The notes under the pieces are model-generated. The model was not told the origin of the DNA. It ran no database searches and saw only the letters and a program-made list of their open reading frames with translations. From Actinomycetes bacterium (GTDB lineage: Bacteria > Actinomycetota > Acidimicrobiia > Acidimicrobiales > RAAP-2), in the NCBI GenBank assembly GCA_021831125.1, contig JAKBNI010000013.1, forward strand, positions 1 through 35,741: DNA of 35,741 nucleotides, given 5' to 3'. Shown here one piece after another: positions 1 through 30,746 of this stretch. Numbering within the stretch: position 1 is the stretch's first letter; each line of letters opens with the position of its first letter. Both the position numbers and the translations under genes were made by a program.

Positions 1-1113
1 GGCCACCGCGCCGGCCCGGCGCCGTCGGGCGCGCGGCTCCGGGGCCGCCACGGCGTGGGGGGCGATCACGTGGACGTCGAGGTCGCGGCTGAGCGCCACG
101 AGCCGCTCGACGAATCCCCCGCGGGGTCGGCGCCAGGAGCGCCCGTGACCCGCGCTCACCACGACCTGGGTGGCCCGCTCGCTGCGGGCGAAGGCCACGA
201 GGGCGCCGGCGACGTCGTCGTCGACGAGCTCGCGGAAGCGCCCCCCGAGCTCCTCGGTGAGCTCGCGCAGCGCCCGCAGGTCGGCCCCCGCCGACGCCGC
301 GTCGCCGCCCACCACGTGCACGGCCACGAGCTCGGCCCCGGCGCGCGCGGCCATGCGCGCGGCCCGGCGCAGCAGTCCCTCGTCGGTCGCCCGGCCGGCC
401 AGGCCCACCACGAGGCGCTCGCGCGTCTCCCAGGCCCGCTCGATCTCGTGCTCCTCGCGGTACTTCGTGAGGGCCTCGTCGACGCGGTCGGCGAGCCACA
501 GGAGGGCCAGCTCGCGCAGCGCCCCGAGGTTGCCGACGCGGAAGTAGTTGGCGAGGGAGGCGTCGATGCGCTCGGGGGGGTACACGTTGCCGTGCGCCAT
601 GCGCCGGCGCAGGGCCTCGGGCGTGATGTCCACGAGCTCGACCTGCTCGGCCCGGCGCACGAAGGGGTCGGGGACGGTCTCGTGCTGGGTGACCCCGGTG
701 ATCGCCTCGACGACGTCGTTCACCGACTCGAGGTGCTGGATGTTCACGGTCGTGATCACGTCGATCCCGGCCTCGAGCAGGTCCTCGACGTCCTCCCAGC
801 GCTTCTCGTGACGCCCGCCGGGCACGTTGGTGTGAGCCAGCTCGTCGACGAGGGCCACCTGGGGGGCGCGCGCCAGGACCGCGTCGAGGTCCATCTCGCT
901 CAGGCGCGCGCCCCGGTACTCGCGGGTCACCCGTGGGACGACCTCGAGGTCGCGCAACTGGGCCTCGGTGAGGGCGCGTCCGTGGGTCTCGACGTAGGCG
1001 ACCACGACGTCCGTGCCGCGCTGGCGACGCCGCCAGCCCTCGTCGAGCATGCGGTAGGTCTTGCCCACGCCCGGCGCCGAGCCCAGGTAGACCCGCAGCG
1101 TCCCGCGGCTCAC
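1..1113 (-). CDS. kdpD: KdpD N-terminal domain protein (sensor subunit, Walker A + USP), partial at window edge
   Basis: The reading frame starts at GTG 1113 and stays open to base 1 (371 codons, no stop), so the 3' end lies outside the window. It begins MSRGTLRVYLGSAPGVGKTY; the Walker A motif GSAPGVGKTY is at residues 11-20 and VDELAHTN at about 86-93, both hallmarks of the KdpD N-terminal domain. A universal-stress-protein fold follows (about 225-355), ending near DVHVIAPH. In full-length KdpD (about 900 aa) the DUF4118 membrane region would come next. Here the frame continues into a short Arg/Ala-rich tail, and the DUF4118 region is encoded separately just upstream, so I infer a short-form KdpD that ends soon after the window. 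The GTG overlaps the TGA of the upstream gene (GTGA), implying translational coupling. Known family role: ATP- and ligand-responsive control of KdpD kinase or phosphatase activity for K+ sensing. Confidence 0.9.
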   Translation of the reverse strand, partial: MSRGTLRVYLGSAPGVGKTYRMLDEGWRRRQRGTDVVVAYVETHGRALTEAQLRDLEVVPRVTREYRGARLSEMDLDAVLARAPQVALVDELAHTNVPGGRHEKRWEDVEDLLEAGIDVITTVNIQHLESVNDVVEAITGVTQHETVPDPFVRRAEQVELVDITPEALRRRMAHGNVYPPERIDASLANYFRVGNLGALRELALLWLADRVDEALTKYREEHEIERAWETRERLVVGLAGRATDEGLLRRAARMAARAGAELVAVHVVGGDAASAGADLRALRELTEELGGRFRELVDDDVAGALVAFARSERATQVVVSAGHGRSWRRPRGGFVERLVALSRDLDVHVIAPHAVAAPEPRARRRRAGAVA

Positions 1114-1856
1114 GGCCCTCCGGGCACGCTCGCGCCGGGGAGCGATCCCGCCACCGCCTCGGCGAGCGCCACGGCGGCGACGCGGCGCTCGAGGGTGACC
1201 GGGTGGGCCGTGTGCGGGGTCAGGACGAAGCGGCCCCGGACCCGCCCGCGCCAGGTGACGGCGATCTCGGTCTCGGGCCCGGGCAGCCCCCACTCCTCGA
1301 CGGGCCAGAGCATCCCCGCGTTCTCGACCTCGCCGTCGGGGAGGAGGCGGGCCCGGGGGGGCTCGAGGTCGCCGGGCACGTAGCGGCAGGCCCTCAGCTC
1401 GAGCACCTCGACGAGCAACTCCTCGGCGCGCTCGACGACCGTCCTCGCCGGCTCGCTCGAGGCGCCGAGGGCGGCCCCCTCGGCGACGGCGCCGACCAGG
1501 CGGGCGCTCTCGTCGTGGCGTCGCCGGCTCCGCCGGCTCCACTGGGCGAGCTCGGTCACGCCCACCCCGACGGCGAGGAGCGCGACGAACGTCTCGAGGT
1601 CGGGTCGGTGCCCGATGGTGAAGCGCCCGTAGGGCGGCGCCCAGTAGAAGTCGTACCAGGCCGCGGCCGAGACCGTCGCGACGTAGCCGGCGCCTCGATC
1701 AGCGACCACGGCGACGGCGGTCACGATCGCCACGAGGAGGAGCGCCATCGCCGAGCCGGCGAACTCGGCGCGCACCGGGATCAGCGCGACGGCGACGACG
1801 AGCGGCGCCGCGAGCGACCCGACCCAGAGGACGAGGCGGTGCCGCGACACGCTCAC
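1110..1856 (-). CDS. DUF4118/GAF membrane protein without kinase domain (KdpD middle region)
   Basis: 248 aa from GTG 1856, overlapping the kdpC stop by GTGA. Residues about 8-104 hold four hydrophobic segments and the DUF4118 signature WYDFYWAPPYG (67-77), as in the KdpD transmembrane sensor. An Arg-rich stretch (108-114) and a GAF-like cytoplasmic part follow. The protein stops before any HisKA or HATPase_c domain: there is no phospho-accepting His box and no N or G box. It is the last but one gene seen in the kdp operon and is coupled to the KdpD N-terminal gene. Together the two look like a KdpD split into parts without a catalytic core. I infer a K+/turgor-sensing membrane partner for the separate kinase at 6480-7937. 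A decayed kinase is the alternative, but the clean start, stop and overlaps argue against random decay. Confidence 0.8.
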   Translation of the reverse strand: MSVSRHRLVLWVGSLAAPLVVAVALIPVRAEFAGSAMALLLVAIVTAVAVVADRGAGYVATVSAAAWYDFYWAPPYGRFTIGHRPDLETFVALLAVGVGVTELAQWSRRSRRRHDESARLVGAVAEGAALGASSEPARTVVERAEELLVEVLELRACRYVPGDLEPPRARLLPDGEVENAGMLWPVEEWGLPGPETEIAVTWRGRVRGRFVLTPHTAHPVTLERRVAAVALAEAVAGSLPGASVPGGP

Positions 1857-2464
1857 TTCGAGAGACCGCGCAGCCGTGCGAGTCCCTCATTGAGGCTCAG
1901 GACGTCGACGTAGGACGAGCCCAGGAAGCCCCACTCGGGGCCGTGGGTCTGGCTCGCGATCAGCCGCCGCAGCCGGACGGGGGCGATGCCGGTCGCCTCG
2001 GCCACCATCGGGATCTGGACGAGGGCGTCGGCCGGCGAGATGTCCGGATCGTACCCACTGCCCGAGGTCGTCACCAGGTCCGGGGTCGGGTGCGCGACGC
2101 CGAGGCGGTGCCAGTAGGCGACGAGCGCCCTGGTGTCGGCGAGGAGGGTCTTGGAGCGTGGGCCGAGGTTGGTCGCCCCCGACTCCCCGTGGACGCCGTT
2201 CGCCACGAGGGGGTTGTCCCCGCCGCTGACGTTCGCCTTGGGGTTCGCGGCGTAGGGGCCGGCGTCGTCGGGCCGGCCGTGGAACCAGTCGCGACCCGTC
2301 CAGTTCTGGCCGATCAGCGTCGAGCCGTTCGGACCGATCGAGCCGTCGGCCTGGCTCTTGAAGAGCAGCTGGGCGACCCCGGTCCCGGCGAGGGCGTAGA
2401 GGAAGCCGAAGACCAGCGTGCAGATCACTGCCATCACGAAGGCTCGGCGGAGGTGCGTCCACAT
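1853..2464 (-). CDS. kdpC: K+-transporting ATPase subunit C
   Basis: 203 aa from ATG 2464 (MWTHLRRAF). One N-terminal transmembrane helix (about 9-31) precedes an extracytoplasmic domain with family motifs: SQADGSI, LIGQNWTG, FHGRPDDAGPYAANPKANVSGGDN, GSGYDPDISPADALVQIPMVA and a C-terminal domain ending VLSLNEGLARL. KdpC stabilises the KdpA-KdpB complex. Its stop overlaps the next gene by GTGA. The gap to the kdpB stop (2473) is 8 nt, so the genes are co-transcribed. Length is near the family norm (about 190-205 aa). Confidence 0.97.
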   Translation of the reverse strand: MWTHLRRAFVMAVICTLVFGFLYALAGTGVAQLLFKSQADGSIGPNGSTLIGQNWTGRDWFHGRPDDAGPYAANPKANVSGGDNPLVANGVHGESGATNLGPRSKTLLADTRALVAYWHRLGVAHPTPDLVTTSGSGYDPDISPADALVQIPMVAEATGIAPVRLRRLIASQTHGPEWGFLGSSYVDVLSLNEGLARLRGLSK

Positions 2465-2472
2465 GATGGCTC

Positions 2473-4518
2473 CTAGTAGGCGTGCAGGGCGACCAGGATC
2501 AGGTCGATCAGCTTGATGAAGACGAACGGCGCGACGACCCCGCCGACCCCGTAGATGAGCACGTTGCGTCGCAGGATCGCCGCCGAGCTGGTCGCGCGGA
2601 ACCGCACCCCCCGCAGCGCCAGGGGGATGAGGGCCACGATGACGAGCGCGTTGAAGATCACCGCCGAGAGGATCGCGCTCTGGGGGCTGTGCAGGCCCAT
2701 GACGTTGAGGGACTTGAGCTGCGGGTAGGCGGCGTAGAACATCGCCGGGATGATGGCGAAGTACTTCGCCACGTCGTTCGCGATCGAGAACGTCGTGAGG
2801 GACCCTCGGGTGATCAGGAGCTGCTTGCCGATCTCGACGACGTCGATCAGCTTCGTCGGGTTCGAGTCGAGGTCGACCATGTTGCCGGCCTCCTTCGCGG
2901 CCATGGTCCCGGTGTTCATGGCGACCCCGACGTCCGCCTGGGCCAGGGCCGGCGCGTCGTTCGTGCCGTCCCCGGTCATCGCCACGAGCTTGCCGCCCTC
3001 TTGCTCCTGGCGGATGAGGGCCATCTTGGTCTCCGGGGTCGCCTCGGCGAGGAAGTCGTCGACCCCGGCCTCTTGGGCGATGGCCGCCGCGGTCAGCGGA
3101 TTGTCCCCGGTGATCATGACGGTGCGAATGCCCAGACGGCGCATCTCGTCGAACTTGTCCTTGATGCCGGCCTTGACGACGTCCTTGAGCTCGATGACGC
3201 CGAGCACGTCGGTGCCGTCGGCGACGACGAGGGGCGTGGAGCCGGCCCGGGCGACCCGCTCGACGATCTCGTCGAGGTCGGTGGGCACCGTGCCGCCCTC
3301 CTCGACCACCCAGCGCTTGACGGCGTCGGCCGCCCCCTTGCGGATGCGCCGGCCGTCCACGTCGAGGCCGGACATCCGTGTCGTGGCGCTGAAGTGGACG
3401 AACTCGTGGGGCTGTTCCAGCGTGCGCTCGCGAATCTGGAAGCGCTCCTTGGCGAGGACCACGATCGAGCGGCCCTCGGGGGTCTCGTCGGCGAGGGAGG
3501 CCAGCTGGGCCACGTCGGCGACGTCGGCCTCCGCGTGGCCACCCACCGGGTAGAAGGCGGAGGCCATCCGGTTGCCGAGCGTGATGGTGCCGGTCTTGTC
3601 GAGCAGGAGCGTCTGGACGTCGCCCGCGGCCTCGACGGCCCGGCCGCTCATCGCGAGCACGTTGCGCTGGACCAGCCGGTCCATCCCGGCGATGCCGATC
3701 GCCGACAAGAGTGCCCCGATGGTCGTGGGGATGAGGCACACCAGCAGCGCCACCAGGACCACGACCGGCACGGACGCCCCGGAGAAGCGGGCGAAGGGGA
3801 CGAGGGTGACGACGACCGGGAGGAAGACGATCGTGAGGACCGAGAGCAGGATGGTCAGGGCGATCTCGTTGGGCGTCTTCTGGCGGTCGGCCCCCTCGAC
3901 GAGGGTGATCATGCGGTCGAGGAACGTGTGGCCGCGCTCGGCGGTTATCCGCACCACGATGCGGTCCGAGAGGACCCGGGTGCCCCCGGTGACGGCCGAG
4001 CGGTCCCCTCCCGACTCGCGGATCACCGGGGCCGACTCCCCGGTGATCGCCGACTCGTCCACCGAGGCGATGCCCTCGGTGATCTCGCCGTCGGAGGGGA
4101 TGACGTCGCCCGGCTCGCAGACGACGAGGTCGCCCACGGCGAGGTCGGCCGCGGCGACGCGCTCCTCGACGCCGCCGGGACCCAGGCGACGCGCCTCGGT
4201 CTCCGAGCGCATCTTGCGCAGGGTGTCGGCCTGGGCCTTGCCGCGGCCCTCGGCCATCGCCTCGGCGAAGTTGGCGAAGATGACGGTGAGGAAGAGCCAG
4301 ACCGTGATCGACCAGCTGAAGACGCCCGGGTGGGCGATCGCCTCGATGAGGCTCACGACCGTTCCGACGAGCACGACGAACATGACCGGGTTGCGCACCT
4401 GGACGCGCGGGTCGAGCTTGGTGACGGCGCCCGCCAGGGCTTCGCGCAGGATCTCGGGGTCGAACAGGCTGCGGGCCTGGGCGACGCCGTGGGGCGCGGT
4501 CGGCTCGGCGACGCTCAT
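2473..4518 (-). CDS. kdpB: K+-transporting ATPase ATP-binding subunit B
   Basis: 681 aa, the family's normal length. This is the P-type ATPase (P1A) subunit that energises K+ uptake. Visible motifs: TGES at 159-162, CLIPTT in the M4 region (261-266), the phosphorylation loop DKTGT with Asp307, the nucleotide-binding region, and [18 protein letters not shown] in the hinge, then [17 protein letters not shown]. Six or seven membrane segments are apparent, the last at the C-terminus. ATG 4518 was chosen because it begins MSVAEPT, aligns with the family N-terminus, and overlaps the kdpA stop by one base (TGATG). The frame stays open upstream through kdpA but that part is not protein-like. Confidence 0.98.
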
Positions 4519-6203
4519 CAGAAGAACCCCCCGTGGCTCAGCTGCTCGACGATCGGCCCGAGGGCCAGCGCCGGGAAGAAGGTGAGGCCCCCGATGATCA
4601 CGACGACGCCCGTGGTGAGCCCCACGAACATCGTGTTGTCGGTGCGGAACGTCCCGAGGGACTGGGGGACGACGTCCTTGCCGGCGAGGACGCCGCCGAG
4701 GGCGATCGCCGGGATCATGATCGCGAAGCGGCCGAGGAGCATGTCGATCGCTCCGATCACGTTGTAGAAGGGGGTGTTGCCGGTGAGCCCGCCGAAGGCC
4801 GACCCGTTGTTGTTGCCCTGGCTGGTGAGCGCGTAGAGGATCTCGCTGAACCCGTGGGGGCCGTGGTTGAGGGGCCCGGCCCGCCCGGCGGCGACCGAGA
4901 CGGCGATCGCGGTCACGACGAGCACGGTGACCGGCATCACCAGGGCGCCGAGTCCCGCGAGCTTCACCTCGGTCGCCTGGATCTTCTTGCCGAGGAACTC
5001 CGGGGTCCGCCCGATCATCAGCCCGCCGATGAACACGGCGATGACCGCGTAGAGCAAGAGCGTGTAGAGGCCGCTGCCCGTGCCGCCCGGGGACACCTCC
5101 CCGAGCATCATCCCCACGAGCAACCCGAAGCCGCCCATCGGGGTGAACGAGTCGTAGGCCGCGTCGGCCGAGCCGGTCGAGGTCGAGGTGGAGGCCACGC
5201 CGAACAGCGCGCTCGTCGTGTCGCCGAAGCGCACCTCCTTGCCCTCGGTGTTGCCCACGCTGGAGTGCACCCCGGCCGCGGCGACGGCCGGGTTGTTCTG
5301 GTGCTCCGCGGTGGCCGTGACCGCGAGGACCGAGCCGAAGAGGATCGCCATCACCGCGAGCAGCGCCACCCCGTGGCGCCGGCTGCCGACCATCTTGCCG
5401 AACGTGTAGGTCAGTGACACGGGGATGCACAGAACGAGGAAGATCGAGAGGAAGTTGGTGAGCCCCGTCGGGTTCTCGAAGGGCGTGGCCGAGTTGGCGT
5501 TCAAGAAGCCGCCGCCGTTGGTGCCCAGCTGCTTGATCGCCTCCATGAAGGCGATCGGACCGCGCGCGATCGTCTGGGTCACCCCGTTGAGGGCGTCATG
5601 GAAGGTCGCGGGGCCGGCCAGGGTCTGGACGGCCCCCTGGGCGACGAAGACGATCCCCGCCGCGAAGGCGATGGGCAACAAGACGTACAGAAGGCACCGG
5701 GTGAGGTCGACCCAGAAGTTGCCGACGGCCGTGGCCTTGCGCCGGGCGAAGCCCCGCACGACGACGATCGCGGCCACGATGCCCACCGCCGGGGTGACGA
5801 ACTGCTGGACCATGAGCGTGATCTGGGAGAAGTACGACATCGTCGTCTCGCCCCCGTAGTTCTGCCAGTTGGTATTGGTCACGAACGAAACGGCGGTGTT
5901 GAAGCTAAGGGCGTTGCCGACGTCACCCAGGTGCTGGGGGTTGAGCGGCAGGTGGCCCTGGAGGCGCAGGACGAGGTAGGTGAGCAGGATCGACATCCCC
6001 GAGAACACGACGAGGGCCCCGGCGTAGCGCTTCCAGGACTGCTCCTTGTCGGGCGAGGTGCCCAGGAGCCGGTAGATCGGCCGCTCCACCCACCAGAGCC
6101 AGCGCACCCGTCCCTCGAAGACCGCGGCCATGTAGGACCCGAGGAAGCGCCACGCGACCGCGAGGGCCACGACGAGCGCCACGAGGGTGAGCAGGAAGCC
6201 CAT
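4518..6203 (-). CDS. kdpA: K+-transporting ATPase subunit A (K+ channel-like)
   Basis: 561 aa from ATG 6203 ([20 protein letters not shown]). About ten to twelve hydrophobic segments carry KdpA family stretches: [72 protein letters not shown], and [14 protein letters not shown]. The glycine-rich loops correspond to the selectivity-filter regions of the K+-transporter superfamily. The start overlaps the kdpF stop by one base. KdpA takes up and selects K+; KdpB hydrolyses ATP. Length matches the family (about 557 in E. coli). Confidence 0.98.
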
Positions 6204-6292
6204 CAGAACCTCTCGGGCTTGAACATCGCGTAGCCGAGGTAGAGGAACATCACCACGCTCACGACGAGCAGGACGAGATCGGTGGCGCTCAC
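6203..6292 (-). CDS. kdpF: KdpF small membrane subunit
   Basis: 29 aa from GTG 6292. A single hydrophobic helix is followed by the conserved KdpF ending YAMFKPERF (compare the usual ...P-E-R/K-F terminus). KdpF is a lipid-like stabiliser of the KdpABC complex. The stop overlaps the kdpA ATG by one base and the start overlaps the stop of the preceding 27-aa ORF (GTGA). The longer open frame back to 6595 has no protein-like character upstream of this GTG and crosses the divergent promoter region, so the short form is correct. Confidence 0.92.
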   Translation of the reverse strand: MSATDLVLLVVSVVMFLYLGYAMFKPERF

Positions 6293-6372
6293 AGTCGGCC
6301 CAGGGCCGCGATGAGGCCGAGCATCGCCGCGGTGAACGCCACGACGCCGACGACGACAAGGAGGTCTGCCAT
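6289..6372 (-). CDS. 27-aa single-helix membrane peptide at the head of the kdp operon
   Basis: ATG 6372 to TGA 6289, 27 codons plus stop. It begins MADLLVVVGVVAF and ends AALGRL: one transmembrane helix with a short charged tail. Its TGA overlaps the kdpF GTG (GTGA), the same coupling seen along this operon, and it is the first ORF after the divergent promoter region. Short hydrophobic ORFs ahead of kdpF are found in some other bacteria. I cannot assign a function; a second KdpF-like stabiliser or a coupling leader is plausible. A GACGAT hexamer 6 nt upstream suggests a leaderless start. Confidence 0.65.
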   Translation of the reverse strand: MADLLVVVGVVAFTAAMLGLIAALGRL

Positions 6373-6378
6373 GGGTCC

Positions 6379-6384
6379 ATCGTC
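6379..6384 (-). promoter_or_regulatory. Putative -10 (GACGAT) for the kdp operon
   Basis: On the minus strand GACGAT lies 6 nt before ATG 6372, placing the transcript start at or next to the start codon (leaderless). The proximal GTTCTGAAC palindrome would then sit at about -32 to -41. Inferred from spacing only. Confidence 0.4.
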
Positions 6385-6403
6385 GCGGCGCCGGGCTGAA
6401 GCG

Positions 6404-6443
6404 GTTCTGAACGGTCCCCCCGGGCACTGTAAAAGTTCTGAAC
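6404..6443. promoter_or_regulatory. Paired GTTCTGAAC palindromes, candidate KdpE-type operators
   Basis: GTTCTGAAC (GTTC-T-GAAC, a perfect odd palindrome) occurs at 6404-6412 and 6435-6443, both followed by G. The starts are 31 bp apart, close to three helical turns. The pair lies between the divergent kdp operon and kinase/regulator genes, each copy just upstream of one putative -10 element. The sequence does not resemble the E. coli KdpE box. Confidence 0.6.
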
Positions 6444-6467
6444 GAGCCCACGGGCCGGCGGCTCGGC

Positions 6468-6473
6468 GATACT
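6468..6473 (+). promoter_or_regulatory. Putative -10 (GATACT) for the histidine kinase gene
   Basis: GATACT ends 6 nt before GTG 6480, and no Shine-Dalgarno sequence precedes that start, indicating a leaderless transcript. The GTTCTGAAC copy at 6435-6443 would lie at about -45 to -37, a usual activator position. Confidence 0.5.
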
Positions 6474-6479
6474 GAGAGC

Positions 6480-7937
6480 GTGAGGCGTCGCTGGTGGGGA
6501 GTGGCCGCGGGACTCGGCAGCCTCGCGGTGCTGGCGACGCTCCTGGTGCCGCTGCGCAGCGCCCTCGCGATCTCGACCGACGCCCTGGTGCTCATCGTGC
6601 CCGTCGTCCTCGGGGTCGCCGTCGGCGGGTTCGTCGCGGGCGCCGTGACCGTCGTCGCGGGGTTCCTCGTCTACGACTTCTTCTTCATCCCCCCGTACGG
6701 CACGCTCCAGGTCAGCTCGGGCCAGGACTGGGTGGCCCTGGCCGTCTACGCGGTCGTGATGCTGCTCGTCGCCCAGATCGTCGACGCCCTCGACGTCACC
6801 CGCACCGAGGCGCGCCACGGGCGTGAGGTCATGCGCCAGATGGCGGCCGTCTCGGAGAGCCTCGTCGCCGACGAGCCCGTCGAGACCCTGCTGCGCTCGA
6901 TCGTCGCGACCGCCCGCACCGTCTTCGGCGTGTCCGGAGCCGCCCTTCTCCAGTTGCGCGAGGGCCGCCTCGTCGTCGTCGCCAGCTCCGGCGAGCCCCT
7001 CAGCCCCGAGGACCTCGCCCGCCTCGACCCGGCGTCGGGTCGGCCGGTCCGGGTCGGCCCCGACGTCCTCGACGAGGGAGGGCTGCGGGCCGTCGCCCTC
7101 TCGTCGTCGGGGCGGGCGGTCGCGATGCTGGCGCTGCGTGGCCGGCCGCAGACCTCAACCGAACGCGAGGTCCTCACGGCTTTCGCCAACGACGCCGCGG
7201 TCGCCCTCGAGCGGGCGAGGCTGCGTGAGGAGGCCCTGCGTGCCCAGCTCCTCGAGGAGGCCGACCGGTTCCGTCACGGCCTCATGGGCGCCGTGAGCCA
7301 CGACCTGAGGACCCCGCTCGCCACCATCAAGGTCGCCTCGTCGACGCTGCTCGGACGCGGCGCGTCGCTCGCCGCGCCCGACGCCGAGGAGCTCCACCGG
7401 CTGATCGACGTCGAGGCCGACCGGCTGACCCGGATGGTCACCAACCTCCTCGACCTCTCCCGGCTGGAGGCCGGAGTCTTGACCCTGCACCACGAGTCGA
7501 TGACGGCCGATCAACTGGTGGACGACGCCCTGGCGGCCGTGCGGACCTCGCTCGCTCGCCAGCGGGTCGTCGTGGAGGTCGAGCCCGACGTGCCGACCCT
7601 CGCCGTCGACCCCGGGCTCATGAACCAGGTGCTCGTCAACCTCCTCGACAACGCCTCACGCCACGGTCCGCCGACGGGAACCGTCACCGTCACGGTGGCC
7701 CGAAGGGGCCCCGAGGTGGTCCTCTCGGTGGACGACGAGGGTCCGGGCGTGCCCGAGGACCAGCGCGAGGCCGTCTTCAACCGCTTCACCCAGTTCGACA
7801 CCGGGGGGCGCTCGGGGCTCGGCCTCACGATCGCACGAACCTTCGTCGAGGCCCACGGCGGGCGCGTCTGGTGCGAGGCCGCGCCCGGTGGTGGCGCTCG
7901 CTTCAGCCTGACGCTCCGCCTGGCGAGGGGCGTGTGA
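6480..7937 (+). CDS. DUF4118-GAF sensor histidine kinase (KdpD-like, lacks the KdpD N-terminal domain)
   Basis: 485 aa from GTG 6480. Four hydrophobic segments (about 7-100) contain the DUF4118 signature YDFFFIPPYG (65-74). A GAF domain (about 125-240) follows, then a dimerisation/phosphoacceptor box with SHDLRTPLATIK (His274), an N box NLLDNASRHG (about 388-397), and G boxes DEGPGVP and GRSGLGLTIA. This is the C-terminal two thirds of KdpD; the Walker A/USP part is missing here and is encoded at the far end of the divergent kdp operon. The stop overlaps the regulator start by one base (TGATG). Predicted role: autophosphorylation and phosphotransfer to the KdpE-type regulator in response to K+ or turgor. 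Confidence 0.93.
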   Translation: MRRRWWGVAAGLGSLAVLATLLVPLRSALAISTDALVLIVPVVLGVAVGGFVAGAVTVVAGFLVYDFFFIPPYGTLQVSSGQDWVALAVYAVVMLLVAQIVDALDVTRTEARHGREVMRQMAAVSESLVADEPVETLLRSIVATARTVFGVSGAALLQLREGRLVVVASSGEPLSPEDLARLDPASGRPVRVGPDVLDEGGLRAVALSSSGRAVAMLALRGRPQTSTEREVLTAFANDAAVALERARLREEALRAQLLEEADRFRHGLMGAVSHDLRTPLATIKVASSTLLGRGASLAAPDAEELHRLIDVEADRLTRMVTNLLDLSRLEAGVLTLHHESMTADQLVDDALAAVRTSLARQRVVVEVEPDVPTLAVDPGLMNQVLVNLLDNASRHGPPTGTVTVTVARRGPEVVLSVDDEGPGVPEDQREAVFNRFTQFDTGGRSGLGLTIARTFVEAHGGRVWCEAAPGGGARFSLTLRLARGV

Positions 7938-8623
7938 TGGCCCGAATCCTCGTCATCGACGACGACCGCTCGCTCCAGCGAGCGCTGCGCCTGGGGCTCG
8001 AGGCGAGCGGCCACGAGGTCATCGCGGCTCCCGACGGCGAGACGGGGGTCGTCCACGCAGCGACCGACGACCCCGACGCCGTGATCGTCGACCTCGGACT
8101 CCCCGACCTCGACGGTCTGGAGGTCTGCCGGCGAATCCGCCAGTGGAGCGACGTGCCCATCATCATCCTCTCGGCGACCGGGGCCGAGTCCACGAAGATC
8201 GCCGCCCTCGACGGCGGAGCCAGCGACTACGTGACCAAGCCCTTCTCGATGGGCGAGCTCGACGCGCGACTGCGCGCGGTGCTGCGCGACCGCCAGGTCG
8301 GCACCCCGCCGCTCGGCCCGACCGAGATCGACCTGGGCGCGCTGGAGGTCGACCTCGTCCACCACGAGGCCCGACGCCTCGGGCGACGGGTGGACCTGAC
8401 GGCCAAGGAGTTCTCGGTCCTCGCCTACCTCGCGCGCCACGCCGGGCGCACCTGCACCTACCAGATGATCCTGCGCGAGGTGTGGGGACGGGGCTACGGC
8501 GGAGAGGCCGCCTACGTCCACACGTACGTCCACCGGCTGCGCCAGAAGCTCGACGACGAGGAGGGCCGGCTGATCCAGACCCTGCCCGGGGTGGGCTACA
8601 CCCTCACCGGGGGCCCTCGCTGA
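7937..8623 (+). CDS. kdpE: KdpE-type OmpR-family response regulator
   Basis: 228 aa. Receiver domain: acidic pocket DDD (8-10), phosphoacceptor Asp52 in VDLGLPD, Ser79/Ala80 and Lys101 in YVTKPFS. The C-terminal OmpR winged helix (about 130-226) includes LTAKEFSVLAYLARHAGR, LREVWG and YVHTYVHRLRQKLDDE, ending LIQTLPGVGYTL as KdpE proteins do. ATG 7937 overlaps the kinase stop by one base. By location it should control the divergent kdp operon, probably through the GTTCTGAAC pair. The last 20 bp overlap the convergent marR gene. Confidence 0.93.
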   Translation: MARILVIDDDRSLQRALRLGLEASGHEVIAAPDGETGVVHAATDDPDAVIVDLGLPDLDGLEVCRRIRQWSDVPIIILSATGAESTKIAALDGGASDYVTKPFSMGELDARLRAVLRDRQVGTPPLGPTEIDLGALEVDLVHHEARRLGRRVDLTAKEFSVLAYLARHAGRTCTYQMILREVWGRGYGGEAAYVHTYVHRLRQKLDDEEGRLIQTLPGVGYTLTGGPR

Positions 8624-9075: not shown

Positions 9076-10875
9076 GTGACCGAGGGGCCCACCCCCGCCA
9101 CCGTCGAGGACCGCCTCGGCGACTTCACCACCACCGTCCGGGTACTGACGCTCCTGCCCATCGCCCTGGCCATCGGCGTCCTCGCGACCGGCATCGCCCT
9201 GGCGCTGCTCGACATGATCGGGCTCTTCACCAACCTCTTCTACTTCCAGCGCGTCGGGGTCTCCCTCGTGGCGCCCGGCACCGAGAGGCTCGGCGCCTGG
9301 ACGATCCTCGTCCCGGTCGTCGGCGGCCTGATCGTCGGGCTCATGGCCCGCTTCGGGTCCGAGCAGATCCGCGGTCACGGGATCCCCGAGGCGATGGAGC
9401 GGATCCTCATCAACGGCAGCACGGTCCAGCCACGCCTCGCGATCCTCAAACCCATCGCCAGCGCCGTGAGCATCGGCACGGGCGGGCCCTTCGGCGCCGA
9501 GGGACCGATCATCCTGACCGGTGGTGCCGTGGGGTCGATCGTCGGCCAGCTCTTCCACCTCACGGCCGCCCAGCGCCGGAGCCTGCTCGTGGCCGGTGCC
9601 GCCGCGGGCATGGCGGCGGTCTTCGGGACGCCGGTCGCCGCCACCCTCTTCGGGGTCGAACTACTGGCCTTCGAGTTCCGCCCCCGCTCGATGATCCTCA
9701 TCGGCACGGCGGCCGCCACGGCCGACGGCCTGCGCCTGGAGCTCGCCCACGCCGGCCTGATATCGCCCCAGCCCCTCTTTCCCCTGGCGGCGCACGTTCC
9801 CGCGGGTGGCCCCGCGCTCTTTGGGGCGGCGGCCGTCGGGGTCGCGTGTGGCCTCTTGGCCTGGGTCATGACCCAGGCGGTCTATCGCAGCGAGGACCTC
9901 TTCTTGCGCCTGCGCGCACGGCTGCACTGGATGTGGTGGCCCCTCATCGGCGGGCTCGTCATCGGCGTGGGCGGGCTCGTCGACCCGAGGGCCCTGGGCG
10001 TCGGCTACGGGACCATCCACGCGACCCTTCTCAGACAACTGGGCGTCGGCGCCCTCTGCGCCCTCCTCGTCGTCAAGACCGTCATCTGGGCGGTCGGCCT
10101 CGGTTCGGGGACGAGTGGGGGCATCCTCGCACCAATCATGACGGTGGGCGCGGCGCTCGGCGGTGTCCTCGGCCACGTCCTTCCCGGGGCCACCCCGGGC
10201 AGCTGGGCCCTCATCGGGCTGGGCGGCGCGCTCGCCGGCGTGACCCGCTCTCCGTTCACCGCGATCGTCTTCGCCTTCGAGCTGACCCACGACCCCAACA
10301 GCCTGTTGCCACTGCTCGTGGCGGCGTGCTGCGCCCACCTGGTGAGTGTGCTGATCCTCAAGCGCTCGATCCTCACCGAGAAGGTGGCGCGCCGGGGCTT
10401 CCACGTGATGCGCGAGTACGCCGTCGACCCGCTCGAGGCGACCTTCGTTCGCGAGATGATGACCCGTGAGCCCGTCACCGCCCGGCCCGACCAGCTGGTC
10501 GCCGACTTCTACGCGGCCCTCCCGGAGGGCTCGGCGGGCCGGCGCCAACGGCTCTACCCCGTCCTCGACCGTGACCGCCTCGTCGCGGTCGTGCCCTGGT
10601 CGACGGTCAGGGCCCGACGCGAGGAGACCGGGGCGCGCGTCGGCGACGTAGCGACGCCCGCGCGGGTCGTGGCCCACCCCGACGAGATCCTCCGCGCGGT
10701 GGCCGACCGGATGGTCGACCAGGAGGTGGGTGTGGTCCCGGTCGTCGAGCGCGCGGCACCCGAGCGGCTCGTGGGCCTGCTCAGTGAGTTCGACCTGTTG
10801 CGCGCGCGCCGCCGGCTGCTCGAAGAGGAGCGTCGGGCCGAGCGGGTCCTCGACCTGTGGCCGAGGCGCGCCTGA
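9076..10875 (+). CDS. ClC-family chloride channel/antiporter with C-terminal CBS pair
   Basis: 599 aa from GTG 9076. The membrane part (about 25-440) carries the ClC signatures GHGIPEAM (100-107), GTGGPFGAEGP (134-144; Glu142 at the gating glutamate position) and GLGSGTSGGILAP. A CBS-domain pair fills about 450-590 (VREMMTREPVTARPDQLV ... VGVVPVVERAAPERLVGLLSEFDLL), which in this family binds adenine nucleotides or regulates gating. The first motif has His in place of the Ser of GSGIP that contacts the central chloride, as in several bacterial ClCs with CBS domains. The divergent marR gene and shared palindrome indicate inducible expression. Chloride/proton exchange is the default prediction; another anion is possible. 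Confidence 0.93.
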   Translation: MTEGPTPATVEDRLGDFTTTVRVLTLLPIALAIGVLATGIALALLDMIGLFTNLFYFQRVGVSLVAPGTERLGAWTILVPVVGGLIVGLMARFGSEQIRGHGIPEAMERILINGSTVQPRLAILKPIASAVSIGTGGPFGAEGPIILTGGAVGSIVGQLFHLTAAQRRSLLVAGAAAGMAAVFGTPVAATLFGVELLAFEFRPRSMILIGTAAATADGLRLELAHAGLISPQPLFPLAAHVPAGGPALFGAAAVGVACGLLAWVMTQAVYRSEDLFLRLRARLHWMWWPLIGGLVIGVGGLVDPRALGVGYGTIHATLLRQLGVGALCALLVVKTVIWAVGLGSGTSGGILAPIMTVGAALGGVLGHVLPGATPGSWALIGLGGALAGVTRSPFTAIVFAFELTHDPNSLLPLLVAACCAHLVSVLILKRSILTEKVARRGFHVMREYAVDPLEATFVREMMTREPVTARPDQLVADFYAALPEGSAGRRQRLYPVLDRDRLVAVVPWSTVRARREETGARVGDVATPARVVAHPDEILRAVADRMVDQEVGVVPVVERAAPERLVGLLSEFDLLRARRRLLEEERRAERVLDLWPRRA

Positions 10876-29964: not shown

Positions 29965-30585
29965 CTAGGCGCCCTCGCCAGCGAGCGGGTCCGTCGTCGG
30001 CGGCGGCAGCCTCGTGCCGAGCTGGTCGATCCCGTCGCTCACCGTGTCGTCGAGGGCCCTGAGGGCCTCCTCGCTGCGGCCGACCTCGAGCATCCAGCGC
30101 GCCGCGGCGACCCGTTGGACGATCGAGTCGCTCGTCTCGAGATCGGCTCGGCGGGCCCGCTCGGCCTCCTCGTACTCTCTCAAGTGGAGCCGTCGCGCGG
30201 CGTCGTTGCGTGCGGCGGACTCGCTCAGGTGTCCCACCAGCCCGCCCATGAGGGCCATCGCGAGCAGGGGCGCCACCCAGCCCGTGAGGTCGGGGTCGCC
30301 CTTGGCTCGGATGAGCTCGAGCACGACGAAGGCGGTCATCGCGAAGCCCGCCGCGTAGGCGCCACCGCGGCGCCCGAAGCGCACGGCGCTGAGCGCGATC
30401 GGCACGACGTAGAGCAGCGCGGCGCTCTGGCCCGCACCGTCGACGAACCAGCGCAGGATCGTCACGACCACCATGAGCATCACGATCACCCCGAGCGCCC
30501 GCGACTTGGTCTTGGGCGCGTAGCGACGAGACAGACTCCATCCAGCGCTCCACAGCCGAACGGCGCGCCCCCATTCACCGACCAT
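29965..30585 (-). CDS. Orphan membrane protein with sensor-kinase-like architecture, no catalytic domain
   Basis: 206 aa from ATG 30585 with GGAGGG upstream; ATG 30672 is possible but its extra residues overlie a likely -10 (GACAAT). Four hydrophobic segments (about 32-47, 54-70, 76-93, 102-120) precede a charged coiled coil (122-150) and a helical C-terminus, SIVQRVAAARWMLEVGRSEEALRALDDTV. The last part resembles the dimerisation helix of some actinobacterial sensor proteins, but no ATPase domain follows. Unknown function; it may sense membrane state or pair with a kinase elsewhere. Confidence 0.7.
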   Translation of the reverse strand: MVGEWGRAVRLWSAGWSLSRRYAPKTKSRALGVIVMLMVVVTILRWFVDGAGQSAALLYVVPIALSAVRFGRRGGAYAAGFAMTAFVVLELIRAKGDPDLTGWVAPLLAMALMGGLVGHLSESAARNDAARRLHLREYEEAERARRADLETSDSIVQRVAAARWMLEVGRSEEALRALDDTVSDGIDQLGTRLPPPTTDPLAGEGA

Positions 30586-30746
30586 CCACAACCCTCCACG
30601 CGACCCCAGCCTTCGAGGCCACGTCCCATTGTCGTGGACCGTGGCGCCCCGAAATCTCGGGACCATCGTCACGTTCCTCGCGAGGGGCCGCCCCGTCAGG
30701 GCGAACCCGGCCCGCCCCCGGTGGCGGACCGATCCGCCCCAGGGGC

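Follow-up and report, generated by a model that had tools for sequence, protein, structure and literature searches.

The window, i.e., the whole stretch of DNA analysed (35,741 nucleotides), was one entire contig, C3, of an assembly with 139 contigs that was 2.0 Mb in size and 87% complete, and base 1 of the window was the end of this contig. A Kdp locus was located at that end, and its features were collected in Table 1. The pump genes kdpC, kdpB, kdpA and kdpF were situated between the sensor genes, as stated in a preliminary description of this DNA, and 4-nt overlaps were found at kdpC/orphan and at orphan/kdpD. The kinase and the regulator assigned to the plus strand were verified by Pfam, which recognised a DUF4118-GAF-HisKA-HATPase protein (hereafter the trans histidine kinase, or trans HK) and an adjoining KdpE with Response_reg and Trans_reg_C matches. 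The orphan gene was confirmed to encode a DUF4118 protein with no kinase match by Pfam. The 29-aa ORF was presumably kdpF, named by its KdpF-type sequence. An ORF similar to the 27-aa one before kdpF was present in 20 of 31 loci, as judged by a rough pattern. Another DUF4118-like membrane protein with a long charged tail was indicated by a weak match (22.5 bits) at 29965-30672 (-) of the window, and weak DUF4118 matches of this kind occurred in several genus genomes.

Table 1. Features of the Kdp locus (positions in the window unless a contig or locus is named) and three KdpD genes with the reverse loss
Feature	Position	Strand	Basis or remark
kdpD, 5' part (ASK domain + Usp)	1..1113	-	PF02702 319 bits, Usp 20.4 bits
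kdpD, remainder (DUF4118, GAF-like, pseudo-DHp, pseudo-CA)	contig C75 27-1379		26-nt overlap + open frame
Orphan DUF4118/GAF-like membrane protein, 248 aa	1110..1856	-	DUF4118 58 bits; AlphaFold pLDDT 85; own family
kdpC	1853..2464	-	frame; homologues adjoin kdpB in relatives
kdpB, TGES motif, Ser at residue 162	2473..4518	-	
kdpA	4518..6203	-	
kdpF (presumed), 29 aa	6203..6292	-	frame
Small membrane ORF, 27 aa, MADLLVVVGVVAFTAAMLGLIAALGRL, directly before kdpF	6289..6372	-	
CTGAA-N6-CTGAA direct repeat, putative KdpE box, shared control region	6396..6411		11-bp spacing
Trans histidine kinase, DUF4118-GAF-HisKA-HATPase, intact catalytic motifs	6480..7937	+	
kdpE response regulator	7931..8623	+	Response_reg 96.5 bits, Trans_reg_C 82.4 bits
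L072 KdpD	3206-5785	-	GTT for GKT, no Asp-Glu
L073 KdpD	3375-6020	-	Walker A retained, Walker B altered
L074 KdpD	1127-3757	-	GTT for GKT, no Asp-Glu

According to Silberberg et al. (PMC11018627), KdpD carries at its N-terminus an atypical serine kinase (ASK) domain that phosphorylates Ser162 of KdpB, whereby the pump is inhibited, and the motifs of this domain are a Walker A G-x5-GKT and a Walker B Asp-Glu. This domain was recognised in the KdpD piece adjoining base 1, and Usp stayed below the Pfam cut-off of 24 bits; both had been described before, but the piece was not the separate, complete gene it had been taken for. A DUF4118 search of its own genome gave a match at bases 51-365 of contig C75, the first 26 bases of which were the exact reverse complement of the first 26 bases of the window. 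The kdpD frame remained open through C75 as far as the stop codon at C75:1379, the protein being 821 aa long when counted from the GTG at 1113, and Pfam placed DUF4118 (65 bits) on the same chain as the ASK. The chain did not stop after Usp, as a short KdpD of ASK/Usp only does. No kdpE-like gene was detected on C75 at 1e-40. The evidence for the join was the 26 nt shared by two contigs of a draft assembly, and unbroken kdpD orthologues, 81-85% identical, were found in four relatives (L055, L057, L061 and L093).

Because of the contig overlap and the whole gene in the relatives, it was concluded that KdpD is not split and that its split appearance is a contig-end effect. Neither a KdpD ending near base 1 nor three separate pieces as the native order could be upheld: the extended ORF ran on into its own DUF4118 and kinase-derived domain, an outcome that the preliminary description itself had named as refuting the split, and the genome search gave kdpD as one gene in the four relatives. 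Since kdpD continues from C3 into C75, the locus encodes three DUF4118 modules, two of them without a working kinase core, and not two modules with one lacking a catalytic core, as previously thought.

A competent DHp-CA, with H, N, G1 and G2 boxes, was absent from KdpD. When aligned with the trans HK, the KdpDs of the window clade lacked the H-box histidine, the N-box, G1 and G2. HisKA had no Pfam match, and HATPase_c, at 16.6 bits, fell short of its cut-off (26.4). In the AlphaFold model of KdpD (pLDDT 82.6, 34 aligned sequences) a pair of long helices and a domain resembling CA were retained, and the kinase half matched DHp-CA structures in Foldseek at E ~1e-9, including DivL (4q20). The GAF-like region of KdpD had no Pfam match, and its helix/strand order was GAF-like in the model only. 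It was concluded that the kinase half of KdpD is dead as judged by its sequence, with its fold predicted to be retained. In each of the five genomes of the window clade that were compared, the kdpD frame was intact up to the stop codon. Across the same five genomes, omega within KdpD was 0.10 for ASK, 0.16 for Usp, 0.21 for DUF4118, 0.28 for the GAF-like region, 0.58 for the pseudo-DHp and 0.30 for the pseudo-CA; for the trans HK it was 0.09 (HisKA) and 0.22 (HATPase). According to these values, constraint within KdpD was strongest on the serine kinase, and it persisted on the dead CA. At locus L094, the motif loss in the KdpD kinase tail differed from that in the window clade.

The survey sample comprised 61 genomes of a larger genus, relatives from the order and named contigs; PF02702 was over the cut-off in 37/61 in the order-relative search. 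Class I loci had a KdpB approximately 67-71% identical to that of the window, a kdpD mostly adjoining kdpE, and intact kinase motifs. Class II loci had a KdpB 77-100% identical to that of the window and a divergent HK-KdpE pair where it was in view, and their KdpDs formed one group in the tree of the ASK + Usp region (support 100/99). Full-length class II KdpDs numbered 41, 34 from genus genomes and 7 from named contigs of Acidimicrobiales kin; this number leaves out KdpDs below 700 aa (L049, L050, L054, L098, L101 and L114 among them, cut by contig ends or frame-broken) and L166 (frame-broken, Streptacidiphilus). Five loci in which neither a pump gene nor an orphan was in view (L065, L067, L070, L072 and L100) were assigned to class II by hand and grouped with it in the tree, L072 on a long branch; L106, with a short KdpB piece of 77% identity, was set outside class II by hand.

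The kinase core was degraded in 35 of the 41 KdpDs, where "degraded" refers to strict motif patterns: the histidine was replaced or gone in 18 and retained in 17 of them, and some G2 regions kept Leu-Gly-Leu. A canonical H-box was present in 19 of 20 control KdpDs outside class II. In the other six of the 41 the H-box and G2 were intact, and a second kdpE (kdpE') was located directly downstream in each case. Among the 35 degraded KdpDs, three still had a kdpE 179-203 nt downstream. A downstream kdpE' was also found at L098, excluded for length. L064, counted as degraded, was borderline, with LRNPL, N, G1 and G2 intact and no kdpE' within 3.3 kb, and by its motifs it may well be an active kinase. 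Kinase decay and kdpE' loss were associated in Fisher's test (p 2.6e-5, uncorrected) over 39 of 42 rows, the window, L039 and L053 being dropped as having no downstream DNA and L166 still being included. The tree required at least two H-box state changes, and five at the histidine. When phylogeny was taken into account the association was not significant, and because just two independent pairs on the tree bear on it, the tie between kinase decay and kdpE' loss is only suggestive.

The serine-kinase half has been kept. Both of its motifs were present in KdpD of the window, and the window KdpB carried TGES with Ser162. The Walker B Asp-Glu was retained in 35/35 degraded KdpDs and Walker A in 32/35, the ORF start being cut or frame-broken in the other three. 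TGES was present in 60 of 65 KdpB pieces, some contigs being represented twice, and the other five were cut or broken before that region. The reverse loss was observed in L072, L073 and L074, in which the HK motifs were intact and the ASK was degenerate (Table 1); a KdpD with the opposite loss, L039, came from the same genome as L072. The KdpD of L065 had a single change, Asp for Glu in Walker B. No pump genes were found on the retrieved stretches of L072, L073, L074 and L065, three of which were bounded by contig ends.

Control of the ASK by c-di-AMP was considered and rejected. Diadenylate cyclase (PF02457) was matched in 0/61 genus genomes, 37 of which had a completeness of 90% or more and contamination of 5% or less, and in 11 of 14 control genomes. 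Because of this result, c-di-AMP is unlikely as the input, and the retained membrane sensor is likely to serve as such.

Of the 35 loci with a degraded KdpD, 28 had a trans HK that matched all four motif patterns. In the remaining seven the trans HK was not found (four loci), cut (L051), frame-split (L058) or retained three of the four patterns (L135). At L079 (genome G080, outside the 41) the trans HK itself departed at G1. At L094 the HK-KdpE pair was ~8 kb away from kdpA. In a tree of 53 rows, class II HKs and the HKs of short-KdpD systems formed one group (97/98); its kinases were from Kdp loci only, so this grouping holds among the rows offered. Repeats of the CTGAA-N6-CTGAA type were matched 29 times, in 23 of 31 loci, where resampled sequence led one to expect 0.05 matches; the pattern had been picked after inspection of the loci. 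Because the kinase half of KdpD has decayed and the adjacent kinase appears to substitute for it, the two known tasks of KdpD look divided between proteins. The earlier proposal that tasks were shared among proteins was borne out to the extent that an intact HK is encoded by a separate, divergent gene and KdpD is without the HK residues, but not as regards the division of KdpD itself.

The orphan was constrained as well (omega 0.25-0.28 across the five window-clade genomes). Its model comprised a helical membrane part, followed by a long helix and a GAF-like domain, with VIA Z 8.2 to 3cit (model residues 109-248) and 7.5 to the E. coli KdpD GAF 4qpr (model residues 120-248). The GAF domain proposed for it earlier was suggested by this predicted fold but had no Pfam match, and in Foldseek no match below 1e-3 was obtained (best E 0.039). 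In the DUF4118+GAF tree of 53 chosen rows, a branch with 100/100 support separated the class II orphans from KdpD and HK, and stand-alone orphans of Kribbella, Streptomyces, Pseudonocardia, Actinopolymorpha and Cellulomonas lay with them. The regions of the orphan, KdpD and HK fell into three separate groups; on this tree it was rejected that the orphan is a piece or a copy of KdpD or of the HK, and likewise that one gene was broken in three. Judging by these sequences, the orphan belongs to a separate Actinomycetota family.

The orphan was found in 32 of the 41 class II loci. No orphan was detected in the interval from kdpC to kdpD of L053, L089, L094 and L101, and a 1.8-kb gap in L091 might conceal one. 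A role specific to Kdp was rejected, as many loci outside Acidimicrobiales had no kdp gene on the retrieved stretch among the best 80 of 176: this held for all Kribbella orphan loci and several of Streptomyces and Pseudonocardia, and some Streptomyces and other loci in this set did have kdp genes nearby. Three loci of stand-alone relatives were examined near base 10000, where a Nramp gene (L155), CorA and amino-acid permease genes (L165) and a BaxI gene (L147) were present.

From the gene order, the intact and lost motifs, the selection and the tree groupings, we infer the activities, sensor inputs, partnership and order of events as follows. We proposed, with a probability of roughly 0.7, that the full-length KdpD is dedicated to inhibiting the pump as a serine kinase, its histidine-kinase core being a pseudokinase, that the trans HK runs transcription, and that the orphan is an accessory sensor. 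Low K+ would activate the trans HK, which would phosphorylate KdpE; KdpE-P would act at the shared control region with the 11-bp-spaced repeats, and kdp would be induced. At sufficient K+, the ASK of KdpD would phosphorylate Ser162 of KdpB and the pump would be shut off. The ASK would be governed by KdpD's own DUF4118/GAF-like sensor, and the orphan would be an accessory sensor subunit. The window KdpB was 79-81% identical to those of short-KdpD systems versus 67-71% to class I. Because of this identity and the HK grouping, a mosaic origin was proposed: kdpB and an HK like those of short-KdpD systems would have been combined with a full-length KdpD at the position otherwise held by the short form; its redundant kinase core would then have decayed.

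Plain decay was one alternative; under it, the kinase half of KdpD would be a remnant without function, and the protein would be heading for truncation to the short form. The loss was graded across the genus, with various residues at the histidine site, omega was raised in the DHp, and some KdpDs had frame breaks (L049, L050 and L098), all of which would be expected of such a remnant. However, the frame was kept to the stop in the five window-clade genomes and the pseudo-CA was constrained (0.30), and we regard mere decay as somewhat unlikely. It is unlikely that the trans HK has the dead DHp-CA of KdpD, the orphan, or both as partners and that both outputs are thereby set by a single K+ signal. 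The constraint on the pseudo-CA, with its fold predicted to be kept, the constraint on the orphan and the presence of three homologous DUF4118 modules at one locus are consistent with such pairing, but the pseudo-DHp, the would-be dimerising part, was the least constrained (0.58). Its fuller form, a three-receptor K+ sensor in which the dead KdpD half, the orphan and the trans HK share one membrane complex and the pseudokinase couples the ASK to transcription, seems rather unlikely.

The arrangement originally suggested, a KdpD split into ASK/Usp, DUF4118/GAF and DUF4118-GAF-HK proteins that form one hetero-oligomeric sensor, agreed with the gene order inside the window alone. ASK-only KdpDs accompanied by a separate HK are indeed present in related genomes (L063, L066, L068 and L069) and described in the literature (PMC11018627). 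Nevertheless, the crossing of the contig end, the whole gene in the relatives and the three distinct groups of modules make it very improbable. That the C3/C75 join is an assembly coincidence and KdpD does stop near base 1 might be supposed of separate contigs in a draft assembly, but given the exact overlap, the correct frame, the same domain order and the 72-79% identity of the C75 part alone to the unbroken genes of the four relatives, it is extremely improbable.

With the dedicated serine kinase as the preferred reading, the locus bears on a question from 2024, when KdpD was described as carrying two kinases on one chain and the control of its serine kinase was left to further work (Silberberg et al., PMC11018627). 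Here, one kinase was removed by evolution and the membrane sensor was kept in a genus with no detected c-di-AMP synthase, and the other kinase was removed in other KdpD copies of the same order. Such KdpDs would permit study of the serine-kinase branch without the histidine-kinase branch.

Compared with the full-length KdpD of E. coli, as presented in PMC11018627, the ASK motifs, DUF4118, the predicted DHp-CA fold, the location of the gene in the pump operon and the KdpB TGES target were the same, with a putative, weakly matched Usp and a putative GAF-like region as further likenesses, whereas the HK catalytic residues were lost and the HK came from another gene. Split ASK/HK Kdp systems, with a short KdpD/Usp and a TM/GAF/DHpCA kinase, are described there as commonest in Acidobacteriota and Chloroflexota. 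The locus resembles them in that the ASK and an HK with DUF4118/GAF are on separate chains, the HK is accompanied by KdpE, and the trans HK groups with the HKs of such systems among the rows offered. In contrast to them, the ASK chain carries TM/GAF/DHpCA-type domains, i.e., its own DUF4118, a GAF-like region and a dead DHp-CA, and an extra orphan DUF4118/GAF gene is present. KdpDs with a truncated DHpCA are described in the same paper for Campylobacterota and Archaea; the kept ASK and the loss of HK activity, apparent here, are common to both, but the present KdpD is untruncated, and KdpE and a trans HK are present. Among the matches listed in a search of open-licence full texts (title and start of the abstract), none concerned a KdpD whose kinase is dead or a DUF4118 orphan as its partner. 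DivL of Caulobacter is a signalling pseudokinase, and it has in common with the KdpD half the HK fold (4q20 among the Foldseek matches) and a presumably non-canonical function; the likeness is in fold only, and a partner role is putative here. Separate ASK and HK chains, and a KdpD made HK-less by truncation, were already published (PMC11018627); a full-length KdpD in which a dead kinase is conserved, together with a trans HK and an orphan DUF4118/GAF gene in the operon, was not among the matches listed in the search of open-licence full texts.
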